Assembly (NCBI GenBank): GCA_004369045.1
Contig: ML213506.1
Coordinates: forward strand, 803,799-867,798
Source: Heliocybe sulcata
Taxonomy: Eukaryota; Basidiomycota; Agaricomycetes; Gloeophyllales; Gloeophyllaceae
Reading direction: 5' to 3'
Length of the DNA: 64,000 bases
Made by a program: the position numbers and the translations under genes. The notes below the pieces were generated by a model that saw only the letters and a list, made by a program, of their open reading frames with translations, searched no databases and was not told the origin of the DNA. Shown piece after piece: positions 1-64,000 of the stretch; positions within the stretch are counted from its first letter, which is position 1; each line of letters opens with the position of its first letter.

Positions 1-430
1 GCGACGAAAGCCACGTGCGCTGTGACAAACTGAGCAGGAGCATTTCCAGTTCGGGATGAATAAAGTCTCACGCTTACCTTCACGTCCTTCTCTACCACTT
101 TTTCTTTTCCTCGACGAAGATCTAGCTGAGTAATAGGTAGTCAAGTCTGGACAAGGTTAATGTCAACAGCTTACCTTGTTGATTACCAAGTAGAATCAAC
201 AGCAGATCTCCATAGTTGTGATTTAATTCGCCTTCAGACTTCGGAGGTTTCCGCTATGGGTCGAGACAACGGCCTGCTAGCAGCGAACGGGAGCAAGGAC
301 GGTCCACCTTCCAGAACTGAATATAACAGTACCACAACGGGTGATTTCTCTAAAGGCCCAGTAACCATCTGCCGGGCACGAATGATGGCTCCTTGTCGTA
401 GTCGAAACTGCGAGAGCATCCATGGCGCAA
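1..430 (-). repeat. Promoter-side flank of a further copy (copy 0) of the multi-copy locus
   Basis: These bases align by eye along nearly their whole length with 6679-7090, the region just upstream of gene A. The match includes the CACGTG motif (12-17 here, 6691-6696 there) and ends close to the TATA side of that promoter. Differences fall at every position and include a short deletion, so the open frame seen on the + strand (160-609) is not obviously protein-coding. Because the left edge stops inside the promoter, the gene it drives should lie to the left, transcribed leftward like gene A. Confidence 0.8.
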
Positions 431-2269
431 CACCTCGAACACAGGATGTGATCTTGACTATCTCTGAACTGACTAGGTCAATGTTCACGATGACAGGAGC
501 TCTACGAGATGCGTACGCTCATATCAAGGCCATGGCCAGCGAAAGGGATTCCCTTCAGTATAAGACTGCCGTTAATTTGACGGAAATCACGATCAAGGCC
601 TGGTACTAAGATCTGAAAACTCGGCGTATGAGAATGAGTGACACTCGCAGGATAATCGAAAAATAAACATACAATTTCATTATCACGAGGATCGGATTTA
701 GGATATTCAGAGATGACACTCGAGATTCAAAAAGACAGCGTGTACCTCGAGTGCTTTTCCCGAGTACTCTCCCTGTGGAAAAAAGAGATCTCGGTGAGCA
801 TCAGTACTATACTCCGGTGACATGTGCTGTCAAAGAGGACTCATCCACAGCTCGGATCATTACTGGTAATATCCGTGAACGCATTTCTTGATCGTGTCTT
901 CTAAGATTGCAGGTCTACATCGTGGTCGAAATTGAAGAGATGTGTCACGCGGACGTGACTGATCGCGTCCTGATCACATCTGGATACTTCTCAGCCGTGT
1001 GTATACATCGCCCCTGATATTCCTCAAGACCGAGCCATCTGCATTGATATTGCGGAAGGACGAGCAAAAGCGATGATGGCTCTTCCTCGTCTTACCCAGC
1101 TGGAGGGCGATATCCTGGGCTGCCTTTTCTCCCTGCGCAAACTGCAGGCGATAGTGCTGGGGACTTCGATACCCGTGTATCTCTCTTGCGTGATAAAAAT
1201 GACTTATGCTAGGTTCTGACGCCCTCTCGGACGATTCCATGTAGCCTGGCCTGCCATTGTCAGATAGGGAGAGGACCCACTGCAGACGATTCAGATGGGC
1301 CGAAGCCACGGTTTCCTCAGGTATCTAACACAACACTGGGTGCAAGGACTACTCGTACCTGTCCGCCACAGCTTCGCCATCCAATAGGGAGGGCGTAGGA
1401 CAACCTCATGAGGCCTGATCACTGAAGTCGTGTTCTGTTTCTCAACATGAAGAAGGAAAAGCGTAAAAATGATACTTTTTGGTGTATTAGAGCAATAACA
1501 AGACCGTAGCCCATGGCACAGATAAGACGAGGCAGCAGGCAACACCACCACATATCATATATCACCGCTGACCCAGGTGTACTGAATGACAACACGCCAG
1601 TGGCGGAAATTGGACCCGAAATCGTGAAAATACGCACCCTGGCCCTCGACTTGCGCAGACCCGTCTTCTTTCTCCCACTGTTCTCGGATCTCTCCTCGTC
1701 AACTTCGACCTCCGTAACACCAGGTCCGCCGTCTCCGCCTGTCTTGCCTTCCGCACCTCCGCCTCCTTGTCCCGCCGCGCCTGCACGAGTTGCTGTACCT
1801 CCTTTACCTGCTTGTCCTCCTCGGCTCCACCCGGGGCGCCCATCCTCGCTTCGTCCGGAGTCGGTAACAATTCCGCAGACTCGTATCTGATGATGCGAAA
1901 TTAAGCTATGTTAATGGCACCCTGCCAATCCAGTGCCGTTATGCCTGCGGTTTCCCCTTGGCTCCGCAAATATAACCCCATCTATCATAGAATCTCGAAT
2001 TGTTGTCCGGCTGTGCTGGCAGCTCGTTACTTCTGCAACTTCCACGACCGTTGTCCTGCCACATACTCCTATGCCTGAGCTGAAGAGTCCATGGTATAGT
2101 AAGCTGTTCGACAGGCTATATGGGGAGCCAGAGTTCTCCAGCAGATCTTCGAATATCGCATATGGCATACTAGGCTCAGAAAGGAGTCAACGACTGCGCA
2201 TTATATCACCTATGCCCCAATGACAGCCTCCAGTCTGAGCTGTATGTTCTCGTTCAAGGGCACGCGAGC
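431..2269. other. Intergenic stretch between copy 0 and copy A
   Basis: No convincing complete gene. Apart from the possible coding fragment at 1562-1893, open frames here are short, overlap on both strands and carry no recognisable motif. The similarity that defines copies A and B fades at about 2270. Confidence 0.4.
1562..1893 (-). pseudogene. Possible truncated coding fragment, Glu/Lys/Arg-rich
   Basis: An open stretch on the minus strand begins after a possible acceptor near 1893 and encodes an acidic then strongly charged segment rich in E, K, R, Q and A, of the kind seen in coiled coils (for example EVQQLVQARRDKEAEVRKAR). No upstream ATG or downstream partner exon could be linked to it, and the frame becomes featureless toward 1562. 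I cannot assign a family. It may be a relic exon, or a chance open frame produced by biased composition. Confidence 0.2.
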
Positions 2270-3960
2270 TTATGAGAGAATAGTAGAATATATTAATGAG
2301 ATGACAATACATGCAATGATACGAGGAGAGATGACGAGATCCGAATCCAAAGAGAAAGATACAATACAAAACGAATCCTGAGATGAGCCGGCTCGGAGAT
2401 ACACCCATGAGAGATAATGTTGGCGTGATAGTATGATATATGAAATAGAAAAGAGGAGGGATACTAGAGGCATTGCAGGCTGGGAAGCGCGACACGCGTG
2501 ATAGTGAGCCCGTGGACTGGTGTTGACTGGTGAAAGTGAGGACGGAGGGAGACGCCGGCGACGGAGACAGGAGGCAGGATCGCGTGCGAGGCCAGCACGA
2601 TCGGTCGACTTGAATTCGGAGCCATGGATGGAGGTGATGGCATGGCTTCCGAATCTGTGATGGTGAATCGAGATGCCTCCAAGAGTTGACTCTTGCATCA
2701 CAAGAGCAACGTCCGGAAGACGGTACAGGAGCCTTACCTCCCAACGAGGGTCGTCGTTCTGGCGTGGCCATGAGGCCAGAGATTGTCAGCTACAGACTCA
2801 CCTGAACATACCAGGAGTCGCAAAGGCAGCGGGCGGGTACTCGGGCAAGGGCTATCACGGTCTCTTGGAGCCTGTGGGGTGCTGTCGTCGATCTGTCTAA
2901 TTAGGGGCTGAGCTGGTAGAGCCGCTCTTAGAGCGGGTTTGTCCCCGAAGGGAGGTCGGGAACCTGGGTGACAGTCAGGATCGTCGAACTGAAAATTTGT
3001 ATGCGACTTACGTTATGCACGAGTTTAGGACGCCAGCATGCCCACAGAGGGAGAAAGATTTAGAGGGTGCTGTGAATATGGTATGGAACCCTTAGCAACC
3101 TACAAAACGTTGTCAGCATACAGCATCGCGCAGGTCAGATGAGAAAACATACAATGCAATGCAATGATGGCAGCAGGTGAGCGTAATGTCCTTTGTACAC
3201 AACGATCCGACCTGGAGAGTATCCGTCAGGATAGGCTCGAGAACCATACGGCAGAACAGACGACGTACCCAGCGCTGATGAAGCACATGCAGTTGCCGCC
3301 CCCGACGTCGACCGTCTCCTCCGGTGGCTCCGTGCCGCGATGCCCAACAGCCCTTTCGCCGCCCACGTTCGATGCTTGTCCCAGTCTATTCAATTGAAAT
3401 CCGTAGAACAATCCCTACCTGTCTCGAGCTACTCGAGCACCATATTGAACGACCCTCGACGTCTGGGGAGGCTGTCAATAGGCTAAACGGAGAAGAATAA
3501 GCATCCCGTCCAGGAAAGAGTAATAGAACACTCACCCAGTCTGCCGTCTTCCAGGCTGGTACGATTGGTACCCTGTCTCCGGCTGACAAGATGATGCGCG
3601 CCCAGCCCGACCATCGACGATGGGAGAGTGTGTCGAAGCGCACAGGGCATGCGCGTTGTGGTCGGGTGGTGAGGACGGCGGAACTTTGTCGAGGTGCGCA
3701 TGGTAAAATCTAGCGAATAGCGTCAGGATATGGAGACACCAAAGAAAGGATGCTACTCACCTCCAGTCGCTGTCCAGCTGCACCTTCAGTCCGATGCCAG
3801 GTATCCCAGAGGAGAGAGGGTATAAGGAATAGAAGAATGAACGAGATAGTGGGGTATAGAGCAGGGTATCTCCGAGCGATAGTATAGGAAATAAAGATAA
3901 GAAAGATGACAGAGGATATTAAGAAAATGGAAATCCTGCACCGCCCCCCCTGCGCGCGCA
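2270..3960 (-). repeat. Downstream block of the multi-copy locus, copy A
   Basis: Read on the minus strand, this block follows gene A and matches 15150-16960, which follows gene B. The matches include several splice-like signals in corresponding places: donors at 3770, 3535 and 2801 and acceptors ending at 3710 and 3472 in A, against donors at 15327, 15560 and 16341 and acceptors ending at 15379 and 15612 in B. Between them the similarity is interrupted by indels that are not multiples of three. The block could be a separate spliced transcription unit, non-coding or encoding a small protein, or a long spliced 3' part of the gene A transcript. Confidence 0.6.
3386..3701 (-). CDS. Possible small spliced ORF in downstream block, copy A (83 aa)
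   Basis: Joining 3701-3536 to 3471-3386 (intron GTGAGT...ACAG, 64 nt) gives an 83-residue frame that starts MRT and contains WCSSSSR near its end. The equivalent spliced frame in copy B (15389-15678) has the same start and the same WCSSSSR segment, but the middle is shifted by small indels and does not align as protein. The donors and acceptors correspond between copies. No signal peptide, domain or known family is recognisable. It could equally be a non-coding spliced RNA. Confidence 0.25.
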
Positions 3961-3970
3961 CACACTCCGT

Positions 3971-6627
3971 TCATGCAGAAGAAGCGCCCCCAAGGTCGTC
4001 GTCCGAGTCGGGTGGCATCTCTGCGTCGTCGCCGTTCGGTTTCTGTCGACGACCGACTGCAGAATCGTCTGAGGCACTCGCATACCCGCTGTCCTGTTCG
4101 ACGTACATCGTTTGGTCCGCAGTGGTAGATGGGGAAGACGGTCCGGCGACAATACCAGGGGACTCGAGCTCAACAGAAGACGAAGACGAAGAACCACCGA
4201 GCGAGAAAGCACCAAGAGCGTCCTCGAGGTCAGCTTGTCTCTTCCTGTCCTCATCGTGTTTCCTGATGGTGCTGCCCCATCCCTTGAGTTTCAGTGTTAT
4301 TGGACGCTTCGACTCAGGGGCCGCTTCTTTCTCTTTGCCTTTCCGGCTCGGACCACCGTTTGCGTGGCCGTCGACAACCATGGTCTCCAGATGGCGAATG
4401 GAAGCATTGAGCTCCACATCTTCCCGCTCTTGAACATGCTCAGGATTGGCGTCGAACAGTGCACTTGATCCAAGCGAGACAGAAGGACCGGCACCGTTCC
4501 TAGTAGAGTCGACGGCAGTAGAAGATGAAGTCGAAGACCCAAGCGTGAAGCCAGCTAGAGCATCCTCGAGTTCTTTCTCTGCCTTCTCGCGCTTCCGAAT
4601 CTTCTCCATATTAGAACGCCACTTGATCTTGATGACGTTCTTCTTCGGAGGAGTTGGCTCTGGAACCTCTACGTCCTTGTCGCTGCTGGTCGGAGCGTCG
4701 TCGATGCCACGGTCGACAGCCATGCTGTCTGGGCCGCCAGTGGGGAAAGCGTGTTCGACCTCTTCTCCTTCGTGGGCAGGAGCGTCTTCAGTGACCGAAG
4801 TGGTTTCACCAGCATCGTCATCGTCCTCGGCCTCCTCGTCTGTTGCTTCATCCGCGCTGGCCTGAGGCTCCTCTTCAGCACCCGATTCCTGTTGCCCAGA
4901 AGCATCGTCCCGATGGGTGGCCGGAGCCACAGCGATTGGGTCATCGGCAGGCTCGTCAGTGTCCATCGGCAAGTCGGTCCCGTCAATCGCCTCCTCCATA
5001 GCCACGTCAGCAGATCCGCCGGTCGGTGCTTCCTGAGGGAGAGGCTCGCTGGGAGTGGTGTCCTTGACCACAGGCGCGTCGAGAGACATGTCCTCCGAAG
5101 GAGCGCTTGCAGCGGGGGTAATGACAGTCTGTCCTTGATTGAGTGGTTCGGCGGCACCGTCGGCGCGAGCGGCAGACGTCGGCGAGGACAGAGGAGCAGA
5201 AGCAAGAGTAGTAGCTATGAGGTCATTGATGGTCTCGACTTCGTTGGCCAATGCTGCCGGGGTGGTGCTCGAAGATCCAGACGTCGATGCGTACGCAGAA
5301 GTAGAAACGCTAGCAGCAGAAGTATCGACAGGCTCTTCTGGGTTGGGCACTTCTTCAAGAACAGTGGCCTCGGTGATAGACGTCAAGCCAGGAGCAACAG
5401 GAAGAGGCGTGCGCTCGGACAAAGCTTCAGGACGAACGAAGGAAGAAAGAACGGTCTCCGTCGTAGCAGCTTGCTCGGGTGTCTGTGCTTGACGAACGTT
5501 CTGAGCCTTGGACTTAAGTGCCTCCCGTTTACTTCGATGAGCCTTCGCCTTCTCCACAGCTTCAAGCCGACGTTGACGGCCCTTGTTCTCCTTGCCGGAG
5601 CTGACAACACGGAGCTTGGCAGAACGTACTGGAGTGCTCGATGTTTGCTTGGTACGACGGGAGACATCGCCAGAAGCGGGAGGCGCAGCCAGTGAGCGAG
5701 GAGCAGCAGAGGCGGAAGGGGAGACAGAGCACTCTTGGTCCTCCATGACGTCAGGAGCAGGCGTAGTCAAAGATTGTTCATCTTCAGAGCCTGCGACGGA
5801 TGCCGCCGAGACGACGTGCGAGACACTTGCAAGAGAGTAGGCTTTGGCCTTGGCAGCGTGCAAATCCAGTCTGAGTAAGAAGGACTGACGACGACGACAG
5901 ACGGTGAGCAGCAAGCAACGATGGAGAACGACGTCCTACTGACCATATCACCCTTCTCCTCGGGCTTAACATGAGCAACGGAAGCGTGAGCATTGACGAC
6001 CAAATGGGAGACAATCTAGACGACGCCGGCGTCAGTCACTCAACAGTGGGCTATCATTTGGATACATACCCGGCGACCTTCCAAAAGCTGCCCCAGCCAT
6101 ACCTCATGGTCCACAAAGGAGGCCATACACGCGTCCCTCTCGTCCCACCTTGCGACCGTGCAACGCTTGGTAAATGCTGGCCGAGAGTCGTCGACCTCGT
6201 GCTGGTCCGCATGGGGGTCGTAGCCGTCGTAGCCGTCGCGACGTCGCTTTCCGCAGGATACCTTGCCTTTCCCGTCGTAGCCTTCGGTTAATTCGCCGTG
6301 TCGAACGCGTCGGAGGTGGGGGACCGCGTCGAGCTCCCTTCGGCGTCGCTCGTGCAGACGACAACCAGCTAGGAATACCCGGATGTACTTGTGCTTCCGT
6401 TGGTACCAGCCCCAGTCAGACTCACCATCCCAAGGTTCCGGTCGTTGAAGGCTGTCCAGTTGACGGTCGAGGCGGCGGACGGCGTTGAGGGGGCAGGGTA
6501 TGTTCGGCGGGGGAGAGAGGCGGACCATCCAGGCGACCGTGCTCGACAGCGGGGCGGTCCCAAAGGTGAGTCCTGAGGAGGAGTAATCGAAGATAATATT
6601 CGCAATAATGTTTGAGCTTGTAGACAT
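3971..6627 (-). CDS. Gene A: unrecognised, mostly disordered protein of a duplicated family (847 aa)
   Basis: Three exons: 6627-6070, 6015-5944 and 5884-3971, with introns GTATGT...CTAG and GTCAGT...TCAG, both phase 0. The N-terminal ~210 residues align with gene B: a PEPWDGESD motif, YQRKHKY, a charged RRRRELDAVPHLRR segment, DDSRPAFTKRC, and the end of exon 1 at LLEGRR. Both introns are at the same places in gene B. The remaining ~637 residues are low-complexity, rich in Ala, Ser, Glu and Asp. Near the C-terminus two similar units each combine a basic Lys/Arg stretch, a helix ending LEDAL and a Ser run. I chose the start MSTSS because it lies shortly after the conserved CACGTG/TATA promoter; an upstream in-frame ATG at 6693 overlaps those elements. 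Function unknown; the basic/acidic make-up would fit a nuclear or nucleic-acid-associated role, which is only a guess. Confidence 0.75.
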
Positions 6628-6670
6628 CGTGAAGTTCAATGGAGAGAGCCAAACGCGAACCAACGTCGCG

Positions 6671-6696
6671 TTCATATAGGCGACGAAAGCCACGTG
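6671..6696 (-). promoter_or_regulatory. Gene A core promoter: CACGTG plus TATA-like element
   Basis: On the minus strand CACGTG (6696-6691) is followed about 12 nt later by CCTATATGAA (6680-6671), about 45 nt upstream of the chosen ATG. The same pair with similar spacing and a shared downstream GCTCTCTCCAT stretch precedes gene B, and CACGTG is also present in the flank at 12-17. CACGTG is the classic bHLH E-box core. Confidence 0.6.
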
Positions 6697-7090
6697 CGGT
6701 GTGACAAACCGAGAAGGACCATTTCCATTTTGGGATCAACAAAGTCTCACGCTCACCTTTCACATCCCTCTCTACCACTTTTTCTTATCCTCGACGAAGA
6801 TCGGCCTGAATGACACCTAGTCAAACCTGGATAAGGTCAATTTCAACAGCGTACCTTGTGGATTACCATGTAGAATTAACCCCAGAGTTCCATAGTCGTG
6901 ATTTAATTGGCCTTCAGACTTCAGAGGTTTCCGCTGTGGGTCGAGACAACGGCATGCTAGCAGGGAACGGGGGCAAGCCTGCCAGAACTGAATATAACAG
7001 TACCACCGCGGATAATTTCTCTAGAGGCCCAGTAGCCGTCTGCCGTGCACGAATGATGGCTCCTTGTCGTAGTTGAGACAGAGAGCATCC
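6679..7090 (-). repeat. Upstream flank of gene A duplicated at 1-430
   Basis: This flank is the second copy of the sequence at 1-430 and contains the gene A promoter. It has a small deletion near 6976 relative to the first copy. The + strand open frame 6810-7076 is the counterpart of the one at 160-609. Its stop codon falls where the other copy reads on, which argues against a conserved protein. Confidence 0.75.
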
Positions 7091-7219
7091 ATGACCCAAC
7101 ATATCGGAGACCGAACGTAGGACGTGAGCTTCATTATCTCTGCATATAATACATCATCTGAAGTCCAAGAACATAAAACAAATAAGATACTCCAAATCTA
7201 TCTCACCTCCCAGTCGCAT

Positions 7220-9351
7220 TTAAAACTCCACCCTCTCTGGCCCGCTATCCTTCCCCGAAACCTTGAACGCTGAATTACACGCGCTCCACACCCACCTAAG
7301 ACCCTCCACCAGCGCGCTTACGCACCCCAGTGTCCCCCTCCGGCACGCATTGATCCATTCGCTGGACCTCGAATAGAAGTAGTCAACGTCTGTATGCTCC
7401 TTGCCTGCTATTGGCGACACTTTCGGCTAATATCCAGACAAGGTGAGTTCGCGAATTAAATGAAGCCGACAGTGACTTACGTTCCGCGCTGTATCAGGCC
7501 TCTCCGCCTCCTTCAATATCCGCTCCTCGTCCTCCCTATCAGCAGCAGCCCACATCTCGCGGAAAAGCCCGACAAAGTGCAGACTCTCCGTAAACCGATG
7601 CAGGGTCTGCATCAGCGCAACAACTTCAGAGCGTTGTAGGAGATTCGAATTCGACCGAGGGCTGCGTGGCATCGTCAGCAAAACAGTTGCGGAAAGTGAG
7701 GGTTCAACGCTCACTCCAAGGTCTTCTCGTCAAGCTCAAAGAGAATCTTCAGCGCCGTGGCCACGCCGGTCGTCTGCACCTTGCCCCACAGCCGGCACTT
7801 ATCGCACCCTACACAATCCATGATTCGCGACACGTTCCGGAAGTGCTGCTTGAACTCCTCCTTCAAGACCTAGTTTACCAAACTGTCAGTATGCGCCGAC
7901 AACCGGATAACAGGATGCATCACCACCCACATTGGCATTCTCTCCTCTAAACAGCACCGACTCATCAAACTTCCCGGCCTCTGTCGCCAAGCCCACCACT
8001 TTGGTGACCACGTCTAACGTCCGCTGATCCTCTTCATGTGTCCCACTAGAGCAGTAATCGTACGCGGATAAGTAGGGCGCGATCCGGCTGACCGCGCGGA
8101 GCAACAGAACATTGTTGAAGTAGATGTATTGCAGCCGCTCCGGATGATTTGCCACACGATTAATGAAACAAGGAAGGTTCGGACCCTAAAGCGGACGACT
8201 ATTAGGAGTGAAAGAGACCGAGACCGAGAAGATTAACGTACCCATTCGCCTGTAGTTTGATTAAAGTATTCCGCGCAGATGTGCGTAGAGATGGATGCAT
8301 GCAGGCCTGTCGATACTCGATCAGTCACCCAAACTAAAGAATAATTTATGTCATCTCACCAGAGATAATCTTGTAATACACCCTCTTCTCCAGACACTGC
8401 TGACCCTCATCAGAAGCAGGTTTGAGACTGTCGCCTAATACAAGCTTAATGCCCTGTATCTTCCTGTCATGATGTATGCCATACCTGAGGGGGCGCTTAG
8501 CTCGTCCTGTGCATCATCTAGCCCGAAACAATTCTCCTGGTATATCGACGACCAGATACGGTGGGCGGAGGGCCCGATATAGCCAGTGAAGCGTTCAGGG
8601 TTAGCGGACAGGTCTATGTAGTCCCCTTCAGTCATATCATCGAGATAGCAGTAGTCGGAGTCTCGGTAATAACAACCCGGAAGCGTTTCCCGCTACATGC
8701 GCTGTGCTGAGTCGGAGGTCTAAATGAGATGTAAGATGCTTACCTGCTCCTCAGACGGCAGTTCTACTTTACTCAGTGCTGCTGCTCGCCATTTCTCCGG
8801 TATTTCACTCTGCGCATTGAGAGCTTAGATATCGTGCCACGATTGTCTCGAGCTTCAGGTCACTCACCTCGTCCACAGTAGTGATTCCGCATTCGCGGTT
8901 CATGCAGAAGCCATGCTCTTCCCAGAATGGGCAATCGCGATATAGGTCGGCCTAACAGAGGAGCGCCATGTAGCCGCAGTAAACAGCAGCGCATCCACAA
9001 GCACTCACTCGGAAGTATTTGAAGAATGGTGTCTTCACCAGCTCGCTTAAGTTGGTGAATAGCTCTTCGTTCACACTCTCCACAGTCTCGTAATCGCATA
9101 GTGTGGTTTCAATCGGACCAGTCAACTGAACGGCGACACCACTCCGTCAGACAATCTGGCATCGTGCACAGTGAGCCAAAACGCACCGTGGTATCCTGTC
9201 TGCATGTGCTATCCTTCGCCGGCTGGTGCTCCAGGACATCTTGAACTTGGTTCTCGTTCACCACTTCCTTTGTAAGGAACGAGCTTGATGCCGAAGCGAC
9301 CGGAGACTGCAGGCAGGCTGCAAGGAGAAGTAGGAGGCTGGTCGGGAGCAT
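7220..9351 (-). CDS. ERO1: ER oxidoreductin 1 (ERO1 family thiol oxidase)
   Basis: Eleven exons: 9351-9187, 9125-9009, 8951-8868, 8809-8744, 8692-8485, 8453-8360, 8306-8242, 8185-7931, 7869-7715, 7661-7481 and 7426-7220 (about 531 aa). ERO1 is the FAD-dependent ER enzyme that re-oxidises protein disulfide isomerase and passes electrons to oxygen. Visible hallmarks are an N-terminal signal peptide, [15 protein letters not shown], the [10 protein letters not shown] region, [37 protein letters not shown] and the CVGCDKC redox/FAD motif. The donor after exon 5 is good, but exon 5 has one base too many to keep frame. A run of five G (8489-8493 on +) is the likely spot, and one base fewer would restore frame at a CAG|GTATGG donor. 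Because ERO1 is essential in yeast, a base-call error is more likely than loss. Confidence 0.9.
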
Positions 9352-12633: not shown

Positions 12634-13237
12634 ATGCATGGAACGCGAGTATTGGCATTTACGGACTGCCAACTAGTTTTAGCTATGGCTAGGAATGACC
12701 GGAAGGTTGATGCGTAGGCGTGAAGTTTGGAATATTCTGCCGTACGTTCTCTGATGCAACCATGAACTAGTTCTTATCGTCGGTGAATTGCCAGTGCTCT
12801 CGCGGTCCTGTACCGCGAGATTACCCCCGTATGGACGGGTAATTCTATCATTTCTGCCCATTCGTAGTAAGCAAGGGAACCCGAGTTTCCAGGGACCACG
12901 GTTCTGAAGGGCCAGGTACGTGCCGACATTTAACATCCATAATAAGAGATGCTGAAGTACTACAGGAGTCTGATCAGCTCAATTATTCTGCAGGCGGAAA
13001 TATATTCAATTATTCAGTGAGTGTGGGGTTGCTATCCGAGCTGAAATCCGTCTAGCAAGCAGAAAAGGGGAGAGCGATGTGAAGGTCAACGTGGGAACTC
13101 AATGTATCCATATATGGAAGTGCTCCTACCCTGTAAGTCACACGGCACGTGACACGCCCGCGCCTATATGAGGGCGACCTGGTTCGAGTTTTGCTCTCTC
13201 CATCGGTCTTCCACCACGTTGACAGATATCCAGAGTT
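12634..13237. other. Intergenic region with a short hairpin (12798-12820)
   Basis: No gene is supported. It holds a perfect 9-bp inverted repeat, TCTCGCGGT/ACCGCGAGA, at 12798-12820 with a 5-nt loop. The right end contains the gene B promoter and a weaker match to the upstream flanks at 1-430 and 6679-7090. Confidence 0.4.
13146..13170 (+). promoter_or_regulatory. Gene B core promoter: CACGTG plus TATA-like element
   Basis: CACGTG at 13146-13151 is followed 13 nt later by TATATG (13165-13170), and the gene B ATG is at 13238. Spacing and the flanking bases (CGCCTATATGA, then GCGAC and a GCTCTCTCCAT stretch) match the gene A promoter on the opposite strand. Confidence 0.6.
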
Positions 13238-15087
13238 ATGCAAAGCTCTAGCGTTTATAACAACCTTCCTGCGCCTTCGTCCTCGACTGACATTAGTCCC
13301 TCGATGGATCGACCTCCCGCCTCCCTCAACGCCTTCACCTACCCTCGTCACCTTCAACGTATCAACCGCCCTGTTCCCTGGGCCGGCGAAAGCGACTACT
13401 CCTACTACTACCGCAAGCACCGCTACGCGCGACAGCTTATTGAGAAGCAGCGATTTGAGCGACGCCTTCTTGAGAGTATCGCAGCAGACAACGCTAAGCT
13501 CGACGCCGTACCTCACAACCGTCGCAACATGTACGGGGAACATCGAGAACAATACAACGAGTCTGATATGGGTAAGCGTCGTCGCTGTTGTTATAGCTTA
13601 CGCGCTGCGGGCAACGCCCTCGACGACTCTCGCCCTGCGCTGGTTAAACGCTGCAGCACGTCGTTATGGACGGGCAGCACCGCAACCATGACCGTCGAGC
13701 TGGAGGACCCACTGCTGTGGGAGAGCGAGATGAAGGAAGGTAGACAGGTGCGTACACGGTTGCCTTCTGTTGGAGCTTGTGTACTAAGCTACTCGCCGTC
13801 CAGGCCATCTGTGTCGCTGCTGATTTCATTACAGCTTGGACCTCGGTGCAAGGTCGCGTGAACGTCGAAGTAAGTCTCTTGCCCTTGGCTGCTATCCTGT
13901 GTCTCATTGGTACCCGCGGCGGCCAGACCTTCACGCGACGATGGGATTATTGCCTTCAGACAGGCACGCCGTTCTGGGAGCCCGCCCCTCAGCCAATCAC
14001 CACGAGCGACGTCTCGGACATGCAAGTTGACGTTGTTTCGCTTGTGGACGTCTCTATGCCTAACGCATCGACTATCCCGCGACCTCTCGAGGACTCTCAA
14101 CCAGACAGCTCTGACATGGACTTGGACAGCTTTGACGACGCGCAAGGTGGCCCACAAACGATTCAAACGTCTGCCACGACGGCCAGCCAACCCTTAGTCA
14201 ACCATCGAGCTCTTCCCTCCGAAGCAACAGAGAATTTCCAGACTCGCCTCCAGGCTGCTTTCGCTACTGCGCCCGAGACATCCGCTCAAGTCACTCCTCC
14301 ATCTGACCTGGATACTGGTTTCATCTTTGAAGACGTTGAGCAAGCTGCTACTACTCCTGTCGCCGTCCCTGAAACTGTAGGCCCTCTTGGTGACAACTCT
14401 ACGCCGGTCAGCCACCCTGTCGAGGGCGACGACGATCAGGCCGACTACGACGACATCTTCGCCAGTGTCTACAATGAAGCCTACGAGGCCTGCGAAGCTC
14501 AATATCCTGAAGCCATTCTGCAACATCTCGAAGAGCCGCTCCATTCTCCCGCATATACCAGCTCAGAACAGGTGGCTGCTCAGGTTTATGACTCCTACGA
14601 CTCGGACAGCGACGACGGCTACCAAGTTAGCCTCGGTTCTGACGACGGCTACCACTGCAGCCCCGGGCGCGACGACGAATTCTATGGCAGCGTCTCTGAC
14701 AGCACTGAGGACGCTGAACGCTACTATCCCGAGGACGTGGCCAACTCACTGGAGTACAGCAACCCCAGGGTCGTCGATTCGGACAGCACGCACGCCAGCA
14801 TTGAAGAGACCGAAACGTACTTCGACGACGAGGTCAAGGACTCGGAGACAAGCGCTGTAGAAGACCTGCATGCTAGTGAAGGCACTCCTGAACCAGAATA
14901 TCCTGCGACGCTGGCGAATAACCTGGATTTCGGGCTTGATGATCTCGTCGATACGGGCGCGGCGGACTTCCTGCATTTCGTTGCGCATGTACAATATGCT
15001 CCCCCTGTCGTTAGTCCGGGCGACGACAAGAACTACAGCGGCGATTCTCGCGGAGGTTCTCAGGAGGGAGAGCGGAGATGCGTATGA
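13238..15087 (+). CDS. Gene B: paralogue of gene A, acidic disordered tail (578 aa)
   Basis: Exons 13238-13747, 13804-13869 and 13927-15087; introns are 56 and 57 nt, both phase 0. The N-terminal ~170 residues align with gene A: RPVPWAGESD, YYYRKHRY, an Arg/Glu-rich helix, KLDAVPHNRRNMY, DDSRPALVKRC and exon end EGRQ. The 22-residue middle exon and the start of exon 3 (TFTRRWDYCLQTG) correspond weakly to gene A exons 2-3. The rest is different from A: very acidic, rich in Asp, Glu, Ser and Tyr, with repeated SDDGY motifs near residue 440. So the N-terminal domain is conserved while the tail has been replaced or has diverged beyond recognition. Function unknown. A (GGT)10 run follows the stop codon. 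Confidence 0.75.
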
Positions 15088-15114
15088 GGTGGATGGGGGG
15101 GAGGTGGGGACGGG

Positions 15115-15144
15115 GGTGGTGGTGGTGGTGGTGGTGGTGGTGGT
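15115..15144 (+). repeat. (GGT)10 microsatellite
   Basis: Ten tandem GGT units lie just after the gene B stop codon, in the presumed 3' UTR, preceded by a G-rich stretch. Gene A has no comparable run at the same place. Confidence 0.95.
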
Positions 15145-15149
15145 GATTT

Positions 15150-16960
15150 GTCATGGATGAGTTCTGTTCTTTCTGGTTTTCTTTTATCTTTATTAGCTAT
15201 ATATCGCTCGGAGACGCCCCTTTATACCCTCATTCTATCCTTCTATTCTGTATACCCTCTTTAGTCTTCTTCCTTCTGGGATACCCTGGCATTTGGACTG
15301 AAGGTGCGACTGGACTGCAATTGGAGGTGAGTGGTATTCATAATTTCCTCTGCTGCATTCAACTAATGCTGTTCTCTAGATTCTTTGGATGCGCACCTGG
15401 AAGTCTCACCCTCCTCATTACCAGCCGGCCAATATGCGCAGTCTTTTGCGCTTCGACATATACTCTCTTTTCAACGTCGATGGTCGGTCTCGGTGCGCAT
15501 TCATCTGTCAGCCGGAGATGTGGTATCAATTCGTACCGGTCCGGAGGACTGCATACTTGGTACGTCCGCACGTGAGATTCCTCGAACACAATACTTACAT
15601 GATTCCGTTCAGGCCTTTTGTCGACATCCTGACACTTCAGGGAGTTGTTCATTATGGTGCTCGAGTAGCTCGAGATAGGTAGGGATTGTTCTGTGGATCT
15701 TACTTCCTGAATGTATTAGGACGAGCTTCGGAAGCGGGCGGCAAACTGGCTGGTGGGCATCGCGGGAGGAGTACACTGGAGGAGACGGTCGACGTCGGGG
15801 GCGGCAACAGCATCTATTCTACCAGCTCAAGGTACGTTGTCTCTTGCGCTCTGTGTGACTCTCGAGCGGATGTTGATGCCTATCTCTCAGACTCGGGATG
15901 TTGTGCACCAGAGGACTCGGATATCCGCGACGGACTGACAGTTGGTTAATGAGCTCTGCCAGTGGCAGCCACCATGGTACGTGTTTCCAGTTTTCTTGTA
16001 GGGCTCTCGTACTAACAGACCGAATCCTGTCTCGGGTGGCGGGCGCTTTACGGCACCCTCCACCCGTCTTCCCCCGCCAGGGCAACCCCTGGCGGGCTCT
16101 CCCAGTTGGACGACAGCGCTCATCCATGGTGCACAACGTGAGTTTCTGTTTGACGGATGCAATTCTTTGACGATTCTGACTGCCTTCCAGTTTCCGACTT
16201 CCCGTCAGGGAACCAGCCCCTCTATCAGCCAATGAGCCCTAATTCGACAGATCGACGACAGCACCCCACAGTACTCCTAATCTCGTGTTTGCCCTTGCCG
16301 AAAGCCGCTTGCCCGTTGTGACTCCTGGTACGTTTGGGAGGTGAGTCTGCAGTTAATGGTTCCGGGCCATAAGGCCACACCAGAAGAACGACTTCCGCTG
16401 TGGATAGGACGAGACGGTAAGGATCTTGTATGCGTCTTCCGGACGTCACTCCTGTGTCGCAAGAGTCGACTCTTGGAGGCATTTCGACTCACCACTACAG
16501 GTTCAGAAGCCATTCAAACACATACTACCATGGCTCCAAACCCAAGTCGACCGGTCGTGCTGTTCCCGCACGCGATCTTGCCTCTGTTCTCCGTCGCCGA
16601 CATCTCCTTTCGTGCTCCTCTCACCACCAATATCACTCAGCGGGCTGACTTTAGGCATGTCGCCTCTCCCCGCTTGATGATGCAGTCCGCTCCGCAATGC
16701 CTTTGGTATCCCCCATTCTTCTATCATTTTTACATAACATTCTATGCAACCACCACGCCATCTCTTCGCTAGGGTGCGTCTCCGAGCTGTCTCAACACTG
16801 GATTTGTAGCGTATCTTTCTCGTGTCTCTTTGGATCTGTTCTCTCTCTCCATGTATCGTAATTTCTCAATCAATATATTCTTCGTTTGATATCATATCAT
16901 CGCGTAAGGCATGCCTCTCGGATGGTCTGACTTGTACCATTTGGCATTGAGCCGCTACCA
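15150..16960 (+). repeat. Downstream block of the multi-copy locus, copy B
   Basis: This block is homologous to 2270-3960 (minus strand, clearly diverged). Its distal part, about 16500-16960, is almost identical to the reverse complement of 63540-64000. Splice-like donors at 15327, 15560 and 16341 and acceptors ending at 15379 and 15612 correspond to those of copy A. No frame runs through the whole block. It ends next to the 3' end of SDR1, so the two are tail-to-tail. Confidence 0.7.
15389..15678 (+). CDS. Possible small spliced ORF in downstream block, copy B (78 aa)
   Basis: Joining 15389-15559 to 15613-15678 (intron GTACGT...TCAG, 53 nt) gives 78 residues, starting MRT and ending WCSSSSR. 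The spliced frame in copy A shares the start and the WCSSSSR segment but not the middle, because a 4-base and a 1-base indel shift the frame in between. No domain or signal peptide is recognisable. A non-coding transcript is an equal alternative. Confidence 0.25.
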
Positions 16961-17059
16961 CTATATGGTACTCGAGCGTCGCATCTCTCACCACTGATGC
17001 CGAGACATGGACACAGACACAATTTCATTTCCTGCTGTTACAAGTCCGCTATCGTCACT

Positions 17060-18305
17060 CTACACCGTTAAATATTGCTTGACTATCTCAGTGACCTTGG
17101 GCGTCGTCTCACTAAGAATCTCGATGGTCTCGTCCCAAATCCTATCCTCACATTCCTTGCCCTCCTTGCTGATGACAAAGTCACTAGGCTCCGCAATCTC
17201 GTTCTCGGATGTATAGGCTCCCCTGATGCCGTCGACCTGTGCAAGGGCGGCAAAGACGAGCTGGCGCGCGCCCTCCTCGCAGGTCCAGGAGACAAGGGCG
17301 AGCTTCTTGCCCTCGTGGATGATGGACGGCGGTGTCCAGCCGGGGAAGTCCCTGGTGAGCTCCGAGTCGCAGAGACCGGGGTTTGAGGTGGTGGTGATGA
17401 GCGGGGACGTTGGAGGGAGGTGGGCTGTGAGGGCGCGGACGAAGAGGACGTTGAGGACTACGGTATGGTTAGCTTTCCTCCTGACAAAAGAAATGTTGGT
17501 GGGCGTACGTTTTGATTCTTGGTACCGGCCGGTAGTACTGGACAGCAGATTAATCTGGTAGGAAGGTGGTGCGATAATGGTGTGCGTACCCTTGCGGGAA
17601 GGACTCCTTCTCGTTCAGCTTCTTTAGGATATTCGGGCTGTTCCTGACTGGCTCAGTTATGCTGGTCCAGTAGTGGACTCCGCTCGATACCACGACGAGC
17701 CTGGTCTGCACCCCGAACTCGGACGCGGTTTTGAGCAGGCGTGGGAGTAGCAGGAGAGAGCACAGGGCGGTGGCGAGGTGGTTCACGTGCAAGCTGAGCG
17801 GAAGAGTATTAGTTATCCTGGGGACAATGGGACAAGATGGGATGGCCTACGTGGATTCCCAGCCTTCCATCTCCTGGTAGTCTTGGACGGCGATCCCAGC
17901 GTTCATGACGAGGATGTCCAGCCTGCCGCCCTCTTTCTCGAATCTGTCGGCGAATGCGACGACCGAGGCGAACCGGCTCAGGTCCAAAAGCCAGAGCTCC
18001 GCGTTCTTCAGCCCCGTCGCCTTCTCGACCTCTATGAACAGTCCATCAGTCCGGTCTGACCTTCAGCTAGTAGGGGGGGATGTGGGCTCACGGGCGACGG
18101 CTCTCTTGCCCCGCTCCTCGCTGCGGCAGGCGAGTATGAACTTGCTGGGGTTCATGGACGCGAAATGCTTCGCGGCCTCGAGACCGATGCCGGTGTTGGC
18201 GCCGACTATGATGACGGTCTTGCCCGTGAGATCAGCCTTGACGGCGAGCTTGGGTGCGCCCGCTTGCTGGATCATGATGGCGTCTTGCATGGTAAGTTTC
18301 CCCAT
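17060..18305 (-). CDS. SDR1: short-chain dehydrogenase/reductase (341 aa)
   Basis: Five exons: 18305-18092, 18031-17851, 17793-17590, 17537-17509 and 17457-17060; all junctions keep frame. It belongs to the classical/extended NAD(P)-dependent SDR family close to retinol-dehydrogenase or WW-domain-oxidoreductase-like fungal enzymes. Visible motifs are the Rossmann TGxxxGxG variant VVGANTGIG form (IIVGANTGIGLEAAKHFA), NAG in LDILVMNAG, the cat. Ser region VVVSSGVHYW and the YxxxK pair YQESK. It should oxidise or reduce a hydroxyl/carbonyl substrate of unknown identity in the cytosol. A TATA-like CCTTTATAA at 18364-18372 precedes it. Its paralogue at 62164-63430 has the same exon layout but is frameshifted. 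Confidence 0.92.
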
Positions 18306-19364
18306 CGTAAAAAGGCGGGATAAGTCGAGGAGGGGTCAAGTTCTTTGGGCGTGCCATGGCGTGCCTTTATAACTAGCAGCTCAGTAAATCAGGAGCTCAG
18401 TAAATCGCCGGGGAGTTAATGCTCATCGCTGTGACGTAATCAAACAGGATCGCGGTCCTCACGGATTGTGCAGCAGATGTGCAGACCAAGGGCATGCCGC
18501 TGCAGTCGCAGTACACGCGTCCTACCGGCATAGAGTGATTCAGTAGGGGCGACAAGAATCCTGTGCTGCGAAACTTGCGCAAATATCAGAGTCCCTTGAG
18601 AGTACAATGTGGTAGAATAGCTTGTAGGTTCAGACTATGCAGCCAGTTTTCTTGGGCGAGCACAGGTGAAATAATAATTACCGAGTCAGACTAAGCAGAC
18701 GCGTCACGCGAGACGCGCTTGTGGCGTGCTCCGCTCGCTTTGACTACGACCTATAGGGCTTCGTAAGCTGTACGCTTCTACGCATTCCTGCCCTCCCCAT
18801 GCACTCGTTCTGCGACACCACCTCCTGGCTTGCGCCCATCGCCTCTTGCAGCATTGTCATCGCTCTTACCTGCTTTCAACATATCGGCTTCACTGAATTC
18901 TCTGACATGTTCACGCTTGCAAGACCTACCCGATGACAGGCTAGTCTAGAATCCAATATCGATACTCGTTTGTCCGGAAATAGCGGCTAGGTAAATCGGT
19001 AAGCGGAACGTCTAACGCGTAGGCCGGATCCTGAGGGATACGCGGCCCTTGCAGCGGTACCGTGAAACCCTCGCCCATCAACAGTTTTCTGCGCTGGACC
19101 GACGGTATGGCGGTTCGGACCGCGCAGGCGCGGTCGGGATCGCAATGCCTTCAGAAGGCGCCCTTGCCGCGCAACGGACCGAAATGAACTACCCTGTCCT
19201 CGCCGGCCCATCTTTTTTTTTGCCTCCGCGGATTTGACTCTCTCAGAAAGGTATAAAAGGTGTGCGGAATCCACGACTTCTCATCAGTTCAGTTCCTACA
19301 TCTCTCCACTTCTATTACATTTCACAACATCATATCAGCCATACTAGTTTGTGCAGGTCACATC
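18306..19364. other. Intergenic region between SDR1 and the Ser-rich gene
   Basis: It lies between divergent genes. No coding segment is supported. It contains the SDR1 TATA-like element (18364-18372, minus) and a strong TATA box, GTATAAAAGG, at 19251-19260 on the + strand for the next gene, preceded by a T9 tract. Confidence 0.5.
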
Positions 19365-39446: not shown

Positions 39447-39581
39447 ATGTGTTCTATCATCCGTTACCGTTTCTCCCAGCCGTCCCGAACCGTCTCTCCC
39501 CTTCTCGCCGTCTCGTCTGGAATCAACAACATAGAAGATATTGCCACCCCATCGACCAGTGCCGCCTATGCTACCATCTGA
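39447..39581 (+). promoter_or_regulatory. Upstream ORF (44 codons) in the cyclin-gene leader
   Basis: The first ATG after the TATA-like element (about 39354-39362) opens a 44-codon frame ending TGA at 39579-39581, 66 nt before the cyclin ATG at 39648. It is in the expected 5' UTR and would be met first by scanning ribosomes. Its coding status is unknown, but its position suggests translational control of the cyclin. Confidence 0.5.
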
Positions 39582-39647
39582 ATAATCCCCGTTACCCAGA
39601 ATCCCCGCTTAGTTTCCCGGACCGTCTCGCCTATTTCGTCTCAGGAT

Positions 39648-57288: not shown

Positions 57289-57885
57289 AACGAAAAGCAC
57301 TCCTGTCGTCCATGTGTAAGACTGCAGGGAGGAGCTTCGACGTCTGCAAAATAGTCTGGCGGCGGGGCGGCGTCGCTTTCGTATACCTAGTATCTCGTGT
57401 TTTCGATATGTATTGATATGTAGTCGCGATGTTTTTCAAGTGCTTTGTTTTAATTGTTAATCCTGCTTTGTTATCTGCAGCTTGAAACCATTGTGCCATT
57501 GTGCCAAACGCGACGCTCAGAATGGACACACCCTTGTCTCAATGAAACACGAAGCTGTTCATGTGCAGGGATGTTGCAGGGCCACCACGATCATGAATGG
57601 CATGACGCACGCTTCGCGAATGCTTCCGCAGTTTTCACGCCAGATGAGGCCAGATATAGCCGGTCGTGAGACGAGCGTTCAGCTCCGCGAAGCACAGGGG
57701 GAAGCGAACACTCTCGCTGCACGTGTTCGCGGTGACGATTATCCGAAGAAGCACGGAAGTATTTCATTAGGCCTTAAATTCTTTTGTCTGAGGCAGCAGG
57801 CAAGATTGTAATCGTGATAAACCGTCCAAGCGAGGAATCTTGGACCCTGCAGAATTTGCCTTGTTGCCCCAAAGTAGCGAGGCTT
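57289..57885. other. Convergent intergenic spacer
   Basis: It lies between the 3' ends of the transcription-factor and protease genes. No coding feature is supported. Confidence 0.4.
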
Positions 57886-59573: not shown

Positions 59574-60214
59574 GGCGGTTACTAGTCTAGAGGGGCGGCC
59601 AGTGACGGTCGTCAGCCGCCGCCCGACCGTGATTTATACATGGCCGTCGGAGTCAGAACACGACTTCCACAATGCTCGGATGGCGCTGACTGTGTGGATT
59701 GTCTATTCGAAGAAGGGCGACCAGCTGGAGAGAAGCGTCCGGACCTCGGAGTAGCACATGGGACGATGCGTATATGTGACGCATTGGGATGATGGCTATA
59801 CATCGAGACCGGGGACGACGGCGAAAGTAGCTTCCATTAGACAAGTACTGGTGTCTACGCACGATACGTCTCTCACGAGCGAAAAGCTTCCTATGGTGTC
59901 CAAATTCAAGCCTGGCATGTCTCCGATTTCTTATATTTCGCGGAGCAGATTAGCGCGAATAAAACAGAGCAGCGTAAGACGAGACTGAAGATATCGACAG
60001 CAATAGTTCAGCGACTGTGCATATATATAGCAGAGCGCAGTCTTCCCTTCAGGAAGTACTGGTGATGCAGTGATGGATGAGTGTCAGTCAATAGATCTCC
60101 TTATCAATATTCCATTGCGCGCGAGCCGGACATTGCCGCCCGCATTGATCTTGGCGCCACAGCTTCCAACAGCGACATCTGCTTTATTCCTCCTATCGTC
60201 CACTTTCACTTGCC
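59574..60214. other. Divergent intergenic region
   Basis: It is the shared upstream region of the protease (minus) and the small unknown gene (+). No coding segment is supported. ATATATATAG at about 60020-60029 is a possible TATA element for the + strand gene. Confidence 0.4.
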
Positions 60215-60845
60215 ATGGGTAAGTGACTCCACCCCGTAATGCATGGGAAGGGACCTTCTGATTCAAGTTACGTTGCCCACAGCTTCATCTGAGGAGATTG
60301 TCTTGAACGACCCGCATTCCCCTTCCCCGAAAGCCATCGAGGCTTTCAATCACATATTACCGACTATCAAGTCAGAGATCATCAAATCGCGCCACCATTG
60401 GGACAAGCACGAGCCCAAGATGTGGTCGCGCGCCGCAGGAATATCAGATGCTGCCCTCGTCGACTTCACAATCGAGAATGACCTGGTGCAGTGCCGCAGC
60501 GCGCCCACATCGTACGGTACAGTCATCCTCGGGAAGATCAGACTTCCCGCTGTGAAGGATGGAGAAGGCGAGGGGTTCATGCATATTAGGTTAGTGATAG
60601 AGCGCTTTAATGGCCGACGGTACTAATATGAGGATCGGATCAACAGGATCCACGACCCTCCGAACAGAGTGAGTAGCCCTCCGTCTCCGGTAATGAGTTA
60701 ACCATGACTCTTTGTCCAGGGCACCGACGACATCATGTTCCACTCTCTGTTCACTGATGAAGGGAACAGGGATGCGGACGGTCGTCCTACGACTTGGCGC
60801 GCCATCCAAACCGCTCAGGCACCACTGGAATTCTTCAATGAATGA
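60215..60845 (+). CDS. Small unknown cytosolic-looking protein (152 aa)
   Basis: Four exons: 60215-60218, 60283-60589, 60647-60668 and 60720-60845. The first exon is only 4 nt (ATGG), and the donor GTAAGT and acceptor CCACAG are strong. The start gives M-A-S-S-E-E-I. The protein has no signal peptide or membrane segment, with a mixed alpha/beta-like composition (HPHSPSPKAIEAFNHI-type helix, SYGTVILGKIRLP strand region). I do not recognise the family. A start at the in-frame ATG 60243 within the intron is possible but less likely, because the predicted splice sites are good. Confidence 0.65.
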
Positions 60846-61106
60846 TAAACTGAAGCGTCGCTAACGCAGTGTAATATTATTGCTCCTGATAAGTGAATAT
60901 TAGGAGGACTGCATCATGGATGGACTGTAATGCATCTGCTGTGATCTCCCCCAAATCCGGCGCGTAGTTATTTCAATGGATATATCGTCGAGGTATTTAA
61001 GACGAGATAGGACGCGCCTGGGACCGCACGTAGGGCATAATGGCGAGGAGCTTTCTGGTGAGGAGCTTTCCATTTAGTCCGCAAAAACATAACACCACTA
61101 TTTCGA

Positions 61107-61201
61107 TGACAACGACGAGATTCGAACTCGCGCGGGAAGACCCATCACGGTATGCCTTGACAGACCTAAACGTGACGCCGTAACCACTTGGCTACGTTGC
61201 C
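61107..61201 (-). tRNA. tRNA-Leu(UAG) with a 14-nt intron
   Basis: On the minus strand the sequence folds as a tRNA. The acceptor GGCAACG pairs with CGTTGTC, the D-stem is GCC/GGC, and the anticodon stem is TCACG/CGTGA. A long variable arm (GGG-TCTT-CCC) is typical of type II tRNAs, and the T-arm contains TTCGAAT. The anticodon TAG is at 61168-61166. A 14-nt intron (61164-61151) sits one base 3' of the anticodon, the usual eukaryotic position. The discriminator base is A. The long variable arm plus anticodon support leucine. Confidence 0.9.
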
Positions 61202-62090
61202 ATATGAGACAAAGATAATATAACATACATATACACATTAATTACGTTTGCGGAGCTAATGTTTCCACTACGGAAGCCGCCCTTCGCTCAGTGCTTTGCT
61301 TTGCTACAGTTCGCCCATGGTATGCTGACCCGTAGATTTGACTAACTCGCTACTGAAGCAAAACGGCGTGCAAATACATCCTAGGCCTCTTGCGATTCAA
61401 GACTTACGGCGTCTCTTCTCATGAGCTAGCATTCACTAAAATAACCGTGAGCCTCTCCTGAGTCGCCCTCTCGCAGGGGAACACGAGTATAGCGTGGACT
61501 AGTACCGAAATTATTGATGCGATCCCGTGACGTCGTCGATGTGCCGCCAGGACACGTAGAACAGAAGTATTAGATCGGCATACTCTCCGTCTGCCACACT
61601 ACTTGGGAGTTCCCGAGCTGACTGTTCCAAGACCGCGCCAGTCGGTGCGTATGTGATGTATTACATCACAAAGGTGTGTGCTAGCTCTCCGGGATGACTA
61701 CGGTGAGTTTCGCGCTATAGTATGACTAGTAACAGGGAATAACATCATTTCCCCCGCCTTATCTTCATCCACATGAATGGCGCTTCAGATGTGAGTCAGC
61801 CTTGTATTATCTATCCATTGACAATGGCCAGTCCGGTACATCTAATCTATATACTCTCTCAGACTATTCGTGCGTTCAGCTCGAACACCATCAGTACTCC
61901 CAGTGCTTTTCGATCTGCAGATACTACCTTTCTCCGTGCAGTGGATATTAGCAACAAGTCGTGACATAATCGGACGATTAGCTGTGCCCAGTGTCCGCAG
62001 ACATCTTAAACAAGGCAGGTAAAAGGATATTATTACTCCGCCGATTGCCTCCGCTGGATCTCAGTGAATACGCATGGTGTCCTATAAAAG

Positions 62091-62100
62091 GAGGGCATGC
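62091..62100 (+). promoter_or_regulatory. TATA box upstream of SDR2
   Basis: CCTATAAAAG lies 64 nt upstream of the SDR2 ATG. A TATA-like element also precedes SDR1, but at a different surrounding sequence. Confidence 0.6.
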
Positions 62101-62163
62101 ATATTGCCATGGCCAACCCAAATTGGTGTCCGTTGAAGTCCCCGGTCTCTGCAAAATCACTCC

Positions 62164-63430
62164 ATGGGCCGACTGACTCGAGAACAGACCATCCTCAGAC
62201 AGCTTGCCGGAGCTCCCAAGCTCGCGGTCAAGGCTGATCTTGCAGGAAAGACCGTGATAGTGGTAGGTGCCAACACCGGCATAGGTCTACAGGCAGCCAT
62301 ACATTTCGCGTCCATGAATGTGAGCAAGGTTATCCTAGCCTGTCGCAGTGAAGAGCGAGGCAAGAAAGCCGTTGCTGGTAAGCCCCGTTTATTGTTGTCG
62401 CCTGCATAAAATGCGCTAACTGGCCGGCAATAGAAGTTGAGAAGGCCACAGGATTGAAGAATGCGGAGCTCTGGCTCCTCGACCTCAGTCGCTTTGCTTC
62501 GGTCGTAGAGTTCGCCGACAAATTTGAGAGAGAGAGAGAGAGGGAGGCTAGACATTCTCGTGATGAACGCTGGTGTTGGTAACATGCAGTACGAGGAAAT
62601 GGAAGGATGGGAGTCCACGTGGGTCATTTATTCGATATACGTGCGCTATCACTAACGGGAGGTACGCCGTAGTTTGCATGTGAATCACCTGTCCACTGCA
62701 TTGTGTGCTCTCCTGTTGCTATCTCGCATGCTGAAGACATCATCCGACTTCTCGGTGCAAACCAGACTTGTCGTCGTATCCAGTGCAGTCCACTACTCTG
62801 TGGCTATCACCGAGGACGTAGCTAACAGCCCCAGTATCTTGAAGAAGCTGAATGACAAAGAGTACTTCCAGGTCGGGTAAGCGGGTTTAACTGCTTCGCG
62901 TCGTAAGGTGCTAACAAACGTCCTCATGGTCCAGTACCGGTGTACAAGCATACATGATTTCAAAGCGTGCGTGTCCATCCGCTTTTTCTAGCCGGCGTCG
63001 AGTCTGACATGTCGCAGTGCTCAACATCTTCTTTGTCCGCGCTCTGACCGCTCGCCTCACCCCGAGCTCTCCCCTCATCACTACCGCCGTGAACCCCGGG
63101 TTCTGTGACTCCGAACTCCGCCGCAACTACACCGACTTCACACCGCCGTCCATCGTGCACGAAGGGAAGAAAATCGAGCTTGTCGCCTGGACCTCCGAGG
63201 AGGGTGCGCGCCAGCTCGTATTTGCCGCCCTCGGCCCTGTGGACCCCGCGGAGGTTGATAGCATCAGAGGTGCTTATATATCCGAGAACGCGATATTGGA
63301 GCCCAGTGACTTTGTCATTAGTAAGGAGGGCAAGGAATGTGAGGATAGGATTTGGGACGAGACGATCGAGATTCTTAGTGAGACGATGCCCAAGGTCACT
63401 GAGATAATCAAGCAATATTTGACCGTGTAG
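62164..63430 (+). pseudogene. SDR2: short-chain dehydrogenase paralogue, frameshifted in a GA repeat
   Basis: The exon layout equals SDR1: 62164-62377, 62434-62618, 62673-62876, 62935-62966 and 63018-63430. Exons 1 and 3 have identical lengths in both genes (214 and 204 nt). The Rossmann motif (VVVGANTGIGLQAAI), YMISK catalytic pair and C-terminus are conserved. Exon 2 is 185 nt against 181 in SDR1. The 4 extra bases fall in a GA run at 62526-62542, shift the frame before LDILVMNAG and lead to a stop near 62579. The shifted downstream frame is otherwise intact, so the break is recent, or an assembly error in a repeat. It lies tail-to-tail with repeat copy C. Confidence 0.85.
62526..62542 (+). 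repeat. (GA)n dinucleotide run causing the SDR2 frameshift
   Basis: Eight to nine GA units lie inside SDR2 exon 2. The corresponding SDR1 codons are GAG AAA GAG GGC GGC AGG, without a repeat. Confidence 0.9.
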
Positions 63431-63539
63431 AGTAACAGTGGCGATTTGTACGTCGGGAAGCAAATGAAGTCGAGCCTCTTACTTGATCCGCATGAGTGGC
63501 GAGCTGCAAGGCTTGATCGTGAGCGCGTGAGCACTAGTA

Positions 63540-64000
63540 ACTCCCCCATGTCAAATGGTACAAGTTGAGACCATCCGAGAGGCACGCCTTACGCGATGGT
63601 ATGATATCAAAGGAAGAATATATTGATTGAGAAATTACGATACATGGAGAGAGAGAGAATACAGATCCGAAGAGACACGAGAAAGATACGCTACAAATCC
63701 AGTGTTGAGTTGAGACAGCTCGGAGACATACCCTAGCCAAGAGATGGCGTGATGGTTGCATAGAATGTTATGTGAAAAATGATAGAAGAATGGGGAATAC
63801 CAAAGGCATTACGGAGCGGACTGCATCATCAAGCGGGGAGAGGCGACATGCCTAAGGGTGAGCCCGCCGACTGATATTGGTGGTGAGAGGAGCACGAAAG
63901 GAGACGTCGGCGACGGAGAACAGAGGCAAGATCGCGTGCGGGAACAGCACGACCGGTCGACTTGGGTTTGGAGCCATGGTAGTATGTGTTTGAATGGCTT
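63540..64000 (-). repeat. Distal downstream block of the multi-copy locus, copy C
   Basis: This is the reverse complement of about 16500-16960. In the last 40 bases I find no mismatch to copy B, and one mismatch in the next 60. The order SDR 3' end then block is the same as at copy B but inverted. The rest of the copy, including a gene A/B homologue transcribed leftward, is expected to the right of the window. Confidence 0.85.

Follow-up and report, generated by a model that had tools for sequence, protein, structure and literature searches.

The window analysed here is a 64,000-nucleotide stretch of the basidiomycete Heliocybe sulcata (assembly GCA_004369045.1, contig ML213506.1, hereafter C4; C4:803799-867798), from a genome of 31.6 Mb in 51 contigs. 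It carries copies of a repeated unit with a fixed order: a CACGTG/TATA promoter, a three-exon protein gene and an intron-bearing downstream block of ~1.5 kb (Table 1). The initial annotation had described four traces of this unit, all of which proved real when the window was compared with itself. Positions 1-466 match 6680-7142 (83%), 3235-3900 match 15867-15184 in inverted orientation (72%), 2318-2988 match 16857-16166, also inverted (70%), the promoter of copy A at 6631-6772 matches that of copy B at 13211-13070 (74%), 2285-2648 match 63615-64000 (69%), and 16507-18280 match 64000-62189 (76%), with an E-value of 9e-14 for the least significant of these. The shared blocks are not low-complexity matches, a possibility that the same annotation had raised against itself. 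Past the B block, the similarity up to 18280 is that of an adjacent short-chain dehydrogenase gene, which runs on the opposite strand and lies outside the unit.

A genome search, whose counts are lower bounds, found a minimum of six gene copies; these lie together on C4, within C4:777.1-871.4 kb. The locus is thus not dispersed, as had been thought, but a single ~95-kb stretch that fits tandem and inverted segmental duplication. The trace called copy 0 is the promoter of a complete gene, a3, which adjoins the window on its left: its ATG at C4:803746 (protein match C4:803162-803746) lies 53 bases outside, and only the CACGTG part of the promoter element falls within.

Table 1. Features of the repeated unit in the window (window positions) and gene copies on C4 (C4 positions).
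Feature	Position	Strand	Remarks
Copy 0: promoter and upstream flank of a3	1..466	-	83% to 6680-7142; CACGTG within 1-22
Copy A promoter	6673..6699	-	CACGTG then CCTATATG; element search
Copy A exon 1	6070..6627	-	186 codons, conserved N-terminal region
Copy A exon 2	5944..6015	-	
Copy A exon 3	3971..5884	-	low-complexity, acidic; stop included
Copy A downstream non-coding block	2278..3809	-	seven predicted introns
Copy A predicted introns	3760-3710, 3535-3483, 3268-3212, 3152-3100, 3011-2964, 2801-2759, 2737-2655	-	
Copy B promoter	13143..13170	+	CACGTG then CCTATATG; element search
Copy B exon 1	13238..13747	+	
Copy B exon 2	13804..13869	+	
Copy B exon 3	13927..15087	+	stop included; whole protein 578 aa
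Copy B downstream block	15276..16888	+	
Copy B block donors	15327, 15560, 15832, 15977, 16138, 16341, 16417	+	fourth-intron acceptor ambiguous
Copy C: 3' end of block (last exon)	63608..64000	-	remainder in N-run beyond window
Short-chain dehydrogenase gene beside B	17057..18308	-	not part of unit; Pfam
Gene copy a1	C4:777802	+	
Gene copy a2	C4:783872	+	
Gene copy a3	C4:803746	-	
Gene copy A	C4:810425	-	
Gene copy B	C4:817036	+	
Gene copy C	C4:871059	-	

The gene has three exons, as previously annotated, and its modelled frame is open in the two copies contained entirely within the window, with predicted proteins of 847 amino acids (A) and 578 amino acids (B). The frames of a1 (from its second ATG), a2 (972 amino acids) and a3 (814 amino acids) are open as well. 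Exon 1 is 93-95% identical among the A-type copies (A, a1, a2 and a3), which share 43% with B and 41% with C in this exon; beyond it the protein looks disordered, judged by composition. No family was found at curated cut-off for the proteins in Pfam, NCBIfam or PHROGs, nor for B exon 1 in PDB. Residues 58-94 of B gave matches to primosomal protein PriC/N'' (Pfam E 0.056, NCBIfam E 0.07) that fall far below the cut-offs, scans of viral and prokaryote contigs yielded 55 and 38 pattern-matching stretches with no confirmed relative, and the best matches of a literature search, judged by title and abstract opening, held no description of this family. The ratio of non-synonymous to synonymous substitution rates (dN/dS) is 0.20-0.52 at the N-terminus in all six pairs of A-type copies, which on these alignments is under purifying selection, and 0.34-0.58 in the middle and 0.23-0.62 in a central cassette between the same copies. 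This cassette exists in two types (A/a1 and a2/a3), its four central rows being 49-62% identical between types and 91-100% within a type, with flanks mostly at 80-98%; outside it, the synonymous rate (dS) among A-type copies is 0.012-0.29.

The arrangement is one of local segmental duplication, ordinary for clustered gene families. The segment C4:777156-788628, with a1 and a2, has an inverted counterpart at 799463-810940, with a3 and A; the matching pieces are 80-93% identical and include intergenic DNA. The four A-type copies form an inverted duplication of a tandem pair. Copies B and C lie inverted to each other about 50 kb apart, and their gene starts are 95% identical over 1165 bases. An N-run at C4:867799-870263 hides most of the C gene, whose exon 1 is readable beyond it. 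The homologous copies are intact and arranged in tandem or inverted, C being represented by exon 1 alone. Ordinary clustered gene families with gene conversion show tandem or inverted local copies and conversion tracts. The present cluster resembles them in both respects and in its variable central cassette, and the 100% identity of the a1 and a2 blocks across 400 alignment columns suggests gene conversion. It differs from them in the conserved, intron-rich, non-coding block that follows the copies and is also present away from the family.

A transposable element or other mobile unit is a very improbable source of these copies. The unit does have fairly constant borders, and an isolated piece of gene A exon 3 lies on contig 2. 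However, as the initial annotation had noted, this is not an obvious transposon: a repeat search found no terminal repeats around A or B, the frames scanned held no transposase, integrase or reverse transcriptase family, the gene copies are confined to the ~95-kb stretch, and the segmental duplications carry intergenic DNA along. The contig 2 piece (335 bases, C2:294123-294457) is 84-87% identical to the four A-type copies, and its surroundings share only two short further matches, of 51 and 37 bases, with the cluster region.

A block of ~1.5 kb follows each readable stop codon on the same strand as the gene; its end is T-rich and resembles a poly(A) region. It looks non-coding because near-identical copies differ by frame-breaking insertions or deletions (indels): block exon indels measure 1, 9, 1, 8, 1, 6 and 1 bases between A and a1 and 1, 1, 1, 6, 1 and 6 between a2 and a3, and 9 of these 13 are not multiples of three. 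On account of the same indels, a second protein gene in the block was rejected; the longest spliced frames there span 90-137 codons across six copies. Seven introns were modelled, of 43-83 bases in A and 41-84 bases across copies. Among the five other alignable copies (a1, a2, a3, B and that on contig 15, described below; copy C is unreadable past its last exon), every one of the 35 positions that correspond to the seven donors picked in A is GT. They take the form GTRNGT at 30 of the 35, the seventh being GTAAGG in every copy, and the acceptors are kept with small shifts except at B intron 4. Intron-like segments number 6 in A, 5 in B and 2 on contig 15 on the sense strand, and 0, 1 and 0 on the antisense strand. 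Dinucleotide shuffles average 0.3-0.4 such segments and reach the observed count in 0, 0 and 16 of 500 cases, an excess that is clear in A and B and modest on contig 15. In all six A-type pairs, exons differ less than introns (Fisher p < 0.05 in four of the six; the pairs are not independent), and A and B share 69.3% of exon and 62.8% of intron positions.

The block also recurs alone, a result that the initial annotation had not foreseen, at C15:379.9-380.9 kb behind the gene for an unrelated protein. Over parts of its length it is 67-79% identical to the copies on C4: 79% and 73% to B in stretches of 308 and 375 query bases, with 67-76% for the A-type copies. The gene upstream is modelled as a 1738-amino-acid low-complexity protein without a Pfam family. 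Its relation to the A family is undetectable, as the hhalign score of 15.3 lies within the range of five shuffles (15.0-19.2), and it was rejected as an A homologue on that ground. The promoter is likewise not shared, since the 19 kb examined at this locus contain no CACGTG. A conserved 31-base block motif, searched with at most three mismatches, occurs at six places, five on C4 and one on contig 15 (control 0), so that no further block copy emerged in the genome, copy C being hidden by the N-run. That block similarity survives where protein similarity is undetectable is the strongest hint of selection on the non-coding part itself.

Together, these findings describe a genuine clustered gene family with an unusual conserved tail that is not explained by any family tested. 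For this tail we propose, with a confidence evenly poised between right and wrong, an intron-rich non-coding RNA derived from the 3' portion of a protein-gene transcript, in a duplicated family subject to gene conversion. Tandem and inverted segmental duplication would have multiplied a small gene family locally, with gene conversion keeping the copies partly alike. Each copy would form one transcription unit of CACGTG/TATA promoter, three-exon frame encoding a largely low-complexity protein, and ~1.5 kb of intron-rich non-coding sequence. Its messenger RNA (mRNA) would be spliced through the non-coding part, and the resulting tail might act within the mRNA or be processed off, and would be conserved for its own sake as an RNA. 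Conserved non-coding sequence does lie downstream of the reading frame on the same strand, as expected of an RNA derived from a 3' mRNA end, and the shared strand and the short stop-to-block spacing on C4 support one transcript. So does the extent of similarity, which among A-type copies is continuous from promoter to block end, barring one cassette of the coding part and a deletion that a3 carries, and which in most pairs drops near these two borders; exceptions are a2/a3, where it continues upstream, and A/a2, where it continues downstream. A bolder version, which we put forward tentatively and think somewhat more probably wrong than right, is that the block belongs to a new family of spliced long non-coding RNA acting as a module, the same eight-exon RNA on at least two unrelated protein genes, amplified to six copies along with one of them and selected for its own function.

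The main rival, which we consider rather unlikely but serious, treats the block as an independent non-coding RNA gene of several exons that has a pyrimidine-rich promoter of its own and was duplicated with the adjoining protein gene. It would account for the different neighbour on contig 15 and for upstream proteins that are unrelated between there and C4. Transcripts with seven introns past the stop codon would be expected to be exposed to nonsense-mediated decay of the mRNA, which also counts in its favour. The 70 bases before the block contain 76% C+T in A, 76% in B and 80% on contig 15, and a tract of this kind would suit a separate promoter. Against such a gene, the block lies downstream on the same strand in all six readable loci, with copy C, cut by the N-run, consistent; A-type similarity spans promoter to block end; and two more intron-like segments, with none antisense, stand between stop codon and block on contig 15, as counted with a looser pattern and no shuffle control.

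Several results weigh against the proposal of an RNA kept at the 3' end of the transcript, in addition to the pyrimidine tract. For intron 4, B has no AG where the aligned acceptor should be, and on contig 15 the intron 1 acceptor has moved. The exon-intron contrast fades with distance (58.9% versus 60.5% between B and contig 15, 57.2% versus 56.0% between A and contig 15), largely owing to the good conservation of 'introns' 6 and 7, which may not be introns, but rather part of the RNA. Covariation terms for conserved RNA structure in the block are near nil, and for the whole spliced block the sense term of -3.4 is weaker than the shuffle mean of -7.9. The fold energy of the whole spliced block (z -10.9) is nearly equalled by that of the antisense strand (z -7.4), and individual windows go beyond z -2.5 on the sense and antisense strands alike. 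In the protein, dN/dS rises to 0.72-1.19 in the C-terminal tail between A-type copies, so that clear constraint is confined to the earlier parts, and gene conversion confounds such rate comparisons.

Some of these points would fit a block left over from the decay of an old protein gene with several exons, or a functionless, passive 3' untranslated region (UTR), alike only through duplication and gene conversion. The frame-breaking indels, the a1/a2 identity that points to conversion, B-contig 15 exons no better kept than introns and the lack of covariation support would all be expected of it. We nevertheless think this explanation improbable, as the donor sites are kept in all three lineages, 67-79% identity persists across contigs beside unrelated proteins, and exon differences are fewer than intron differences in every A-type pair.

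Least probable of all is a telomerase RNA or a host gene of small nucleolar RNAs (snoRNAs), even though both kinds of RNA have fungal precedents. The telomerase RNA of Ustilago maydis comes from the long UTR of the emi1 transcript (Logeswaran et al. 2022, as described in PMC12566771), and, going by that account, it resembles the block in being a long non-coding RNA downstream of a frame in an intron-bearing transcript, a likeness of workings only. Unlike it, the block has no telomere template and no Rfam match, and it exists in six to seven copies with unrelated upstream proteins at two places. Contigs C1 and C30 both begin with short TTAGGG runs (5 matches in total, pattern control 1); a longer telomere-repeat pattern found no telomere run. 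None of the six predicted spliced blocks (C being unreadable) contains an 8- or 9-base permutation of the template, each having one CCCTAA, and telomerase RNA was rejected on this ground. Fungal snoRNAs often lie within introns or exons, and non-coding snoRNA host genes, as they figure in PMC3596301, share with the block several exons and short introns. The block differs from such hosts in that six of its seven modelled introns measure about 41-61 bases and no C/D box pair is common to the copies. Introns of about 41-61 bases are short for a snoRNA. No Rfam family reached its gathering score in the blocks, and we treat the best sub-threshold match (E 0.11) as chance.

In fungi, non-coding RNAs that are conserved and spliced are difficult to recognise, and seven loci in one genome with two kinds of protein neighbour offer a natural comparison that separates selection on an RNA from selection on a protein. 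If confirmed, the tail would stand beside the Ustilago telomerase RNA as a functional RNA that stems from the 3' portion of a protein gene, and it would be unusual, as far as is known, in its multi-copy state and its sharing between unrelated genes.

Further observations concern the surroundings. The spacer of the a1-a2/a3-A duplication holds an ATP-sulfurylase/APS-kinase gene and a 658-amino-acid open frame (C4:795423-797396) without a Pfam match. An 850-base inverted match of 73% links C4:772951-773785, left of the cluster, with 804866-805641 in the A-a3 intergenic region. A gap of 10 N at C4:777723-777732, at the start of a1, has first codons of the gene on both sides and is likely an assembly artefact. 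DNA similar to the short-chain dehydrogenase gene of the B side lies beside C (window 62145-63454); C4:872387-873659 holds a third copy, and contig 13 a weak relative. An ERO1 gene occupies window 7221-9322 on the minus strand, ending just upstream of the copy A promoter. The only gathering-level Rfam match in the window is a transfer RNA gene at 61107-61201 (47.6 bits), to which ARAGORN assigns an odd four-base anticodon, perhaps due to an intron.

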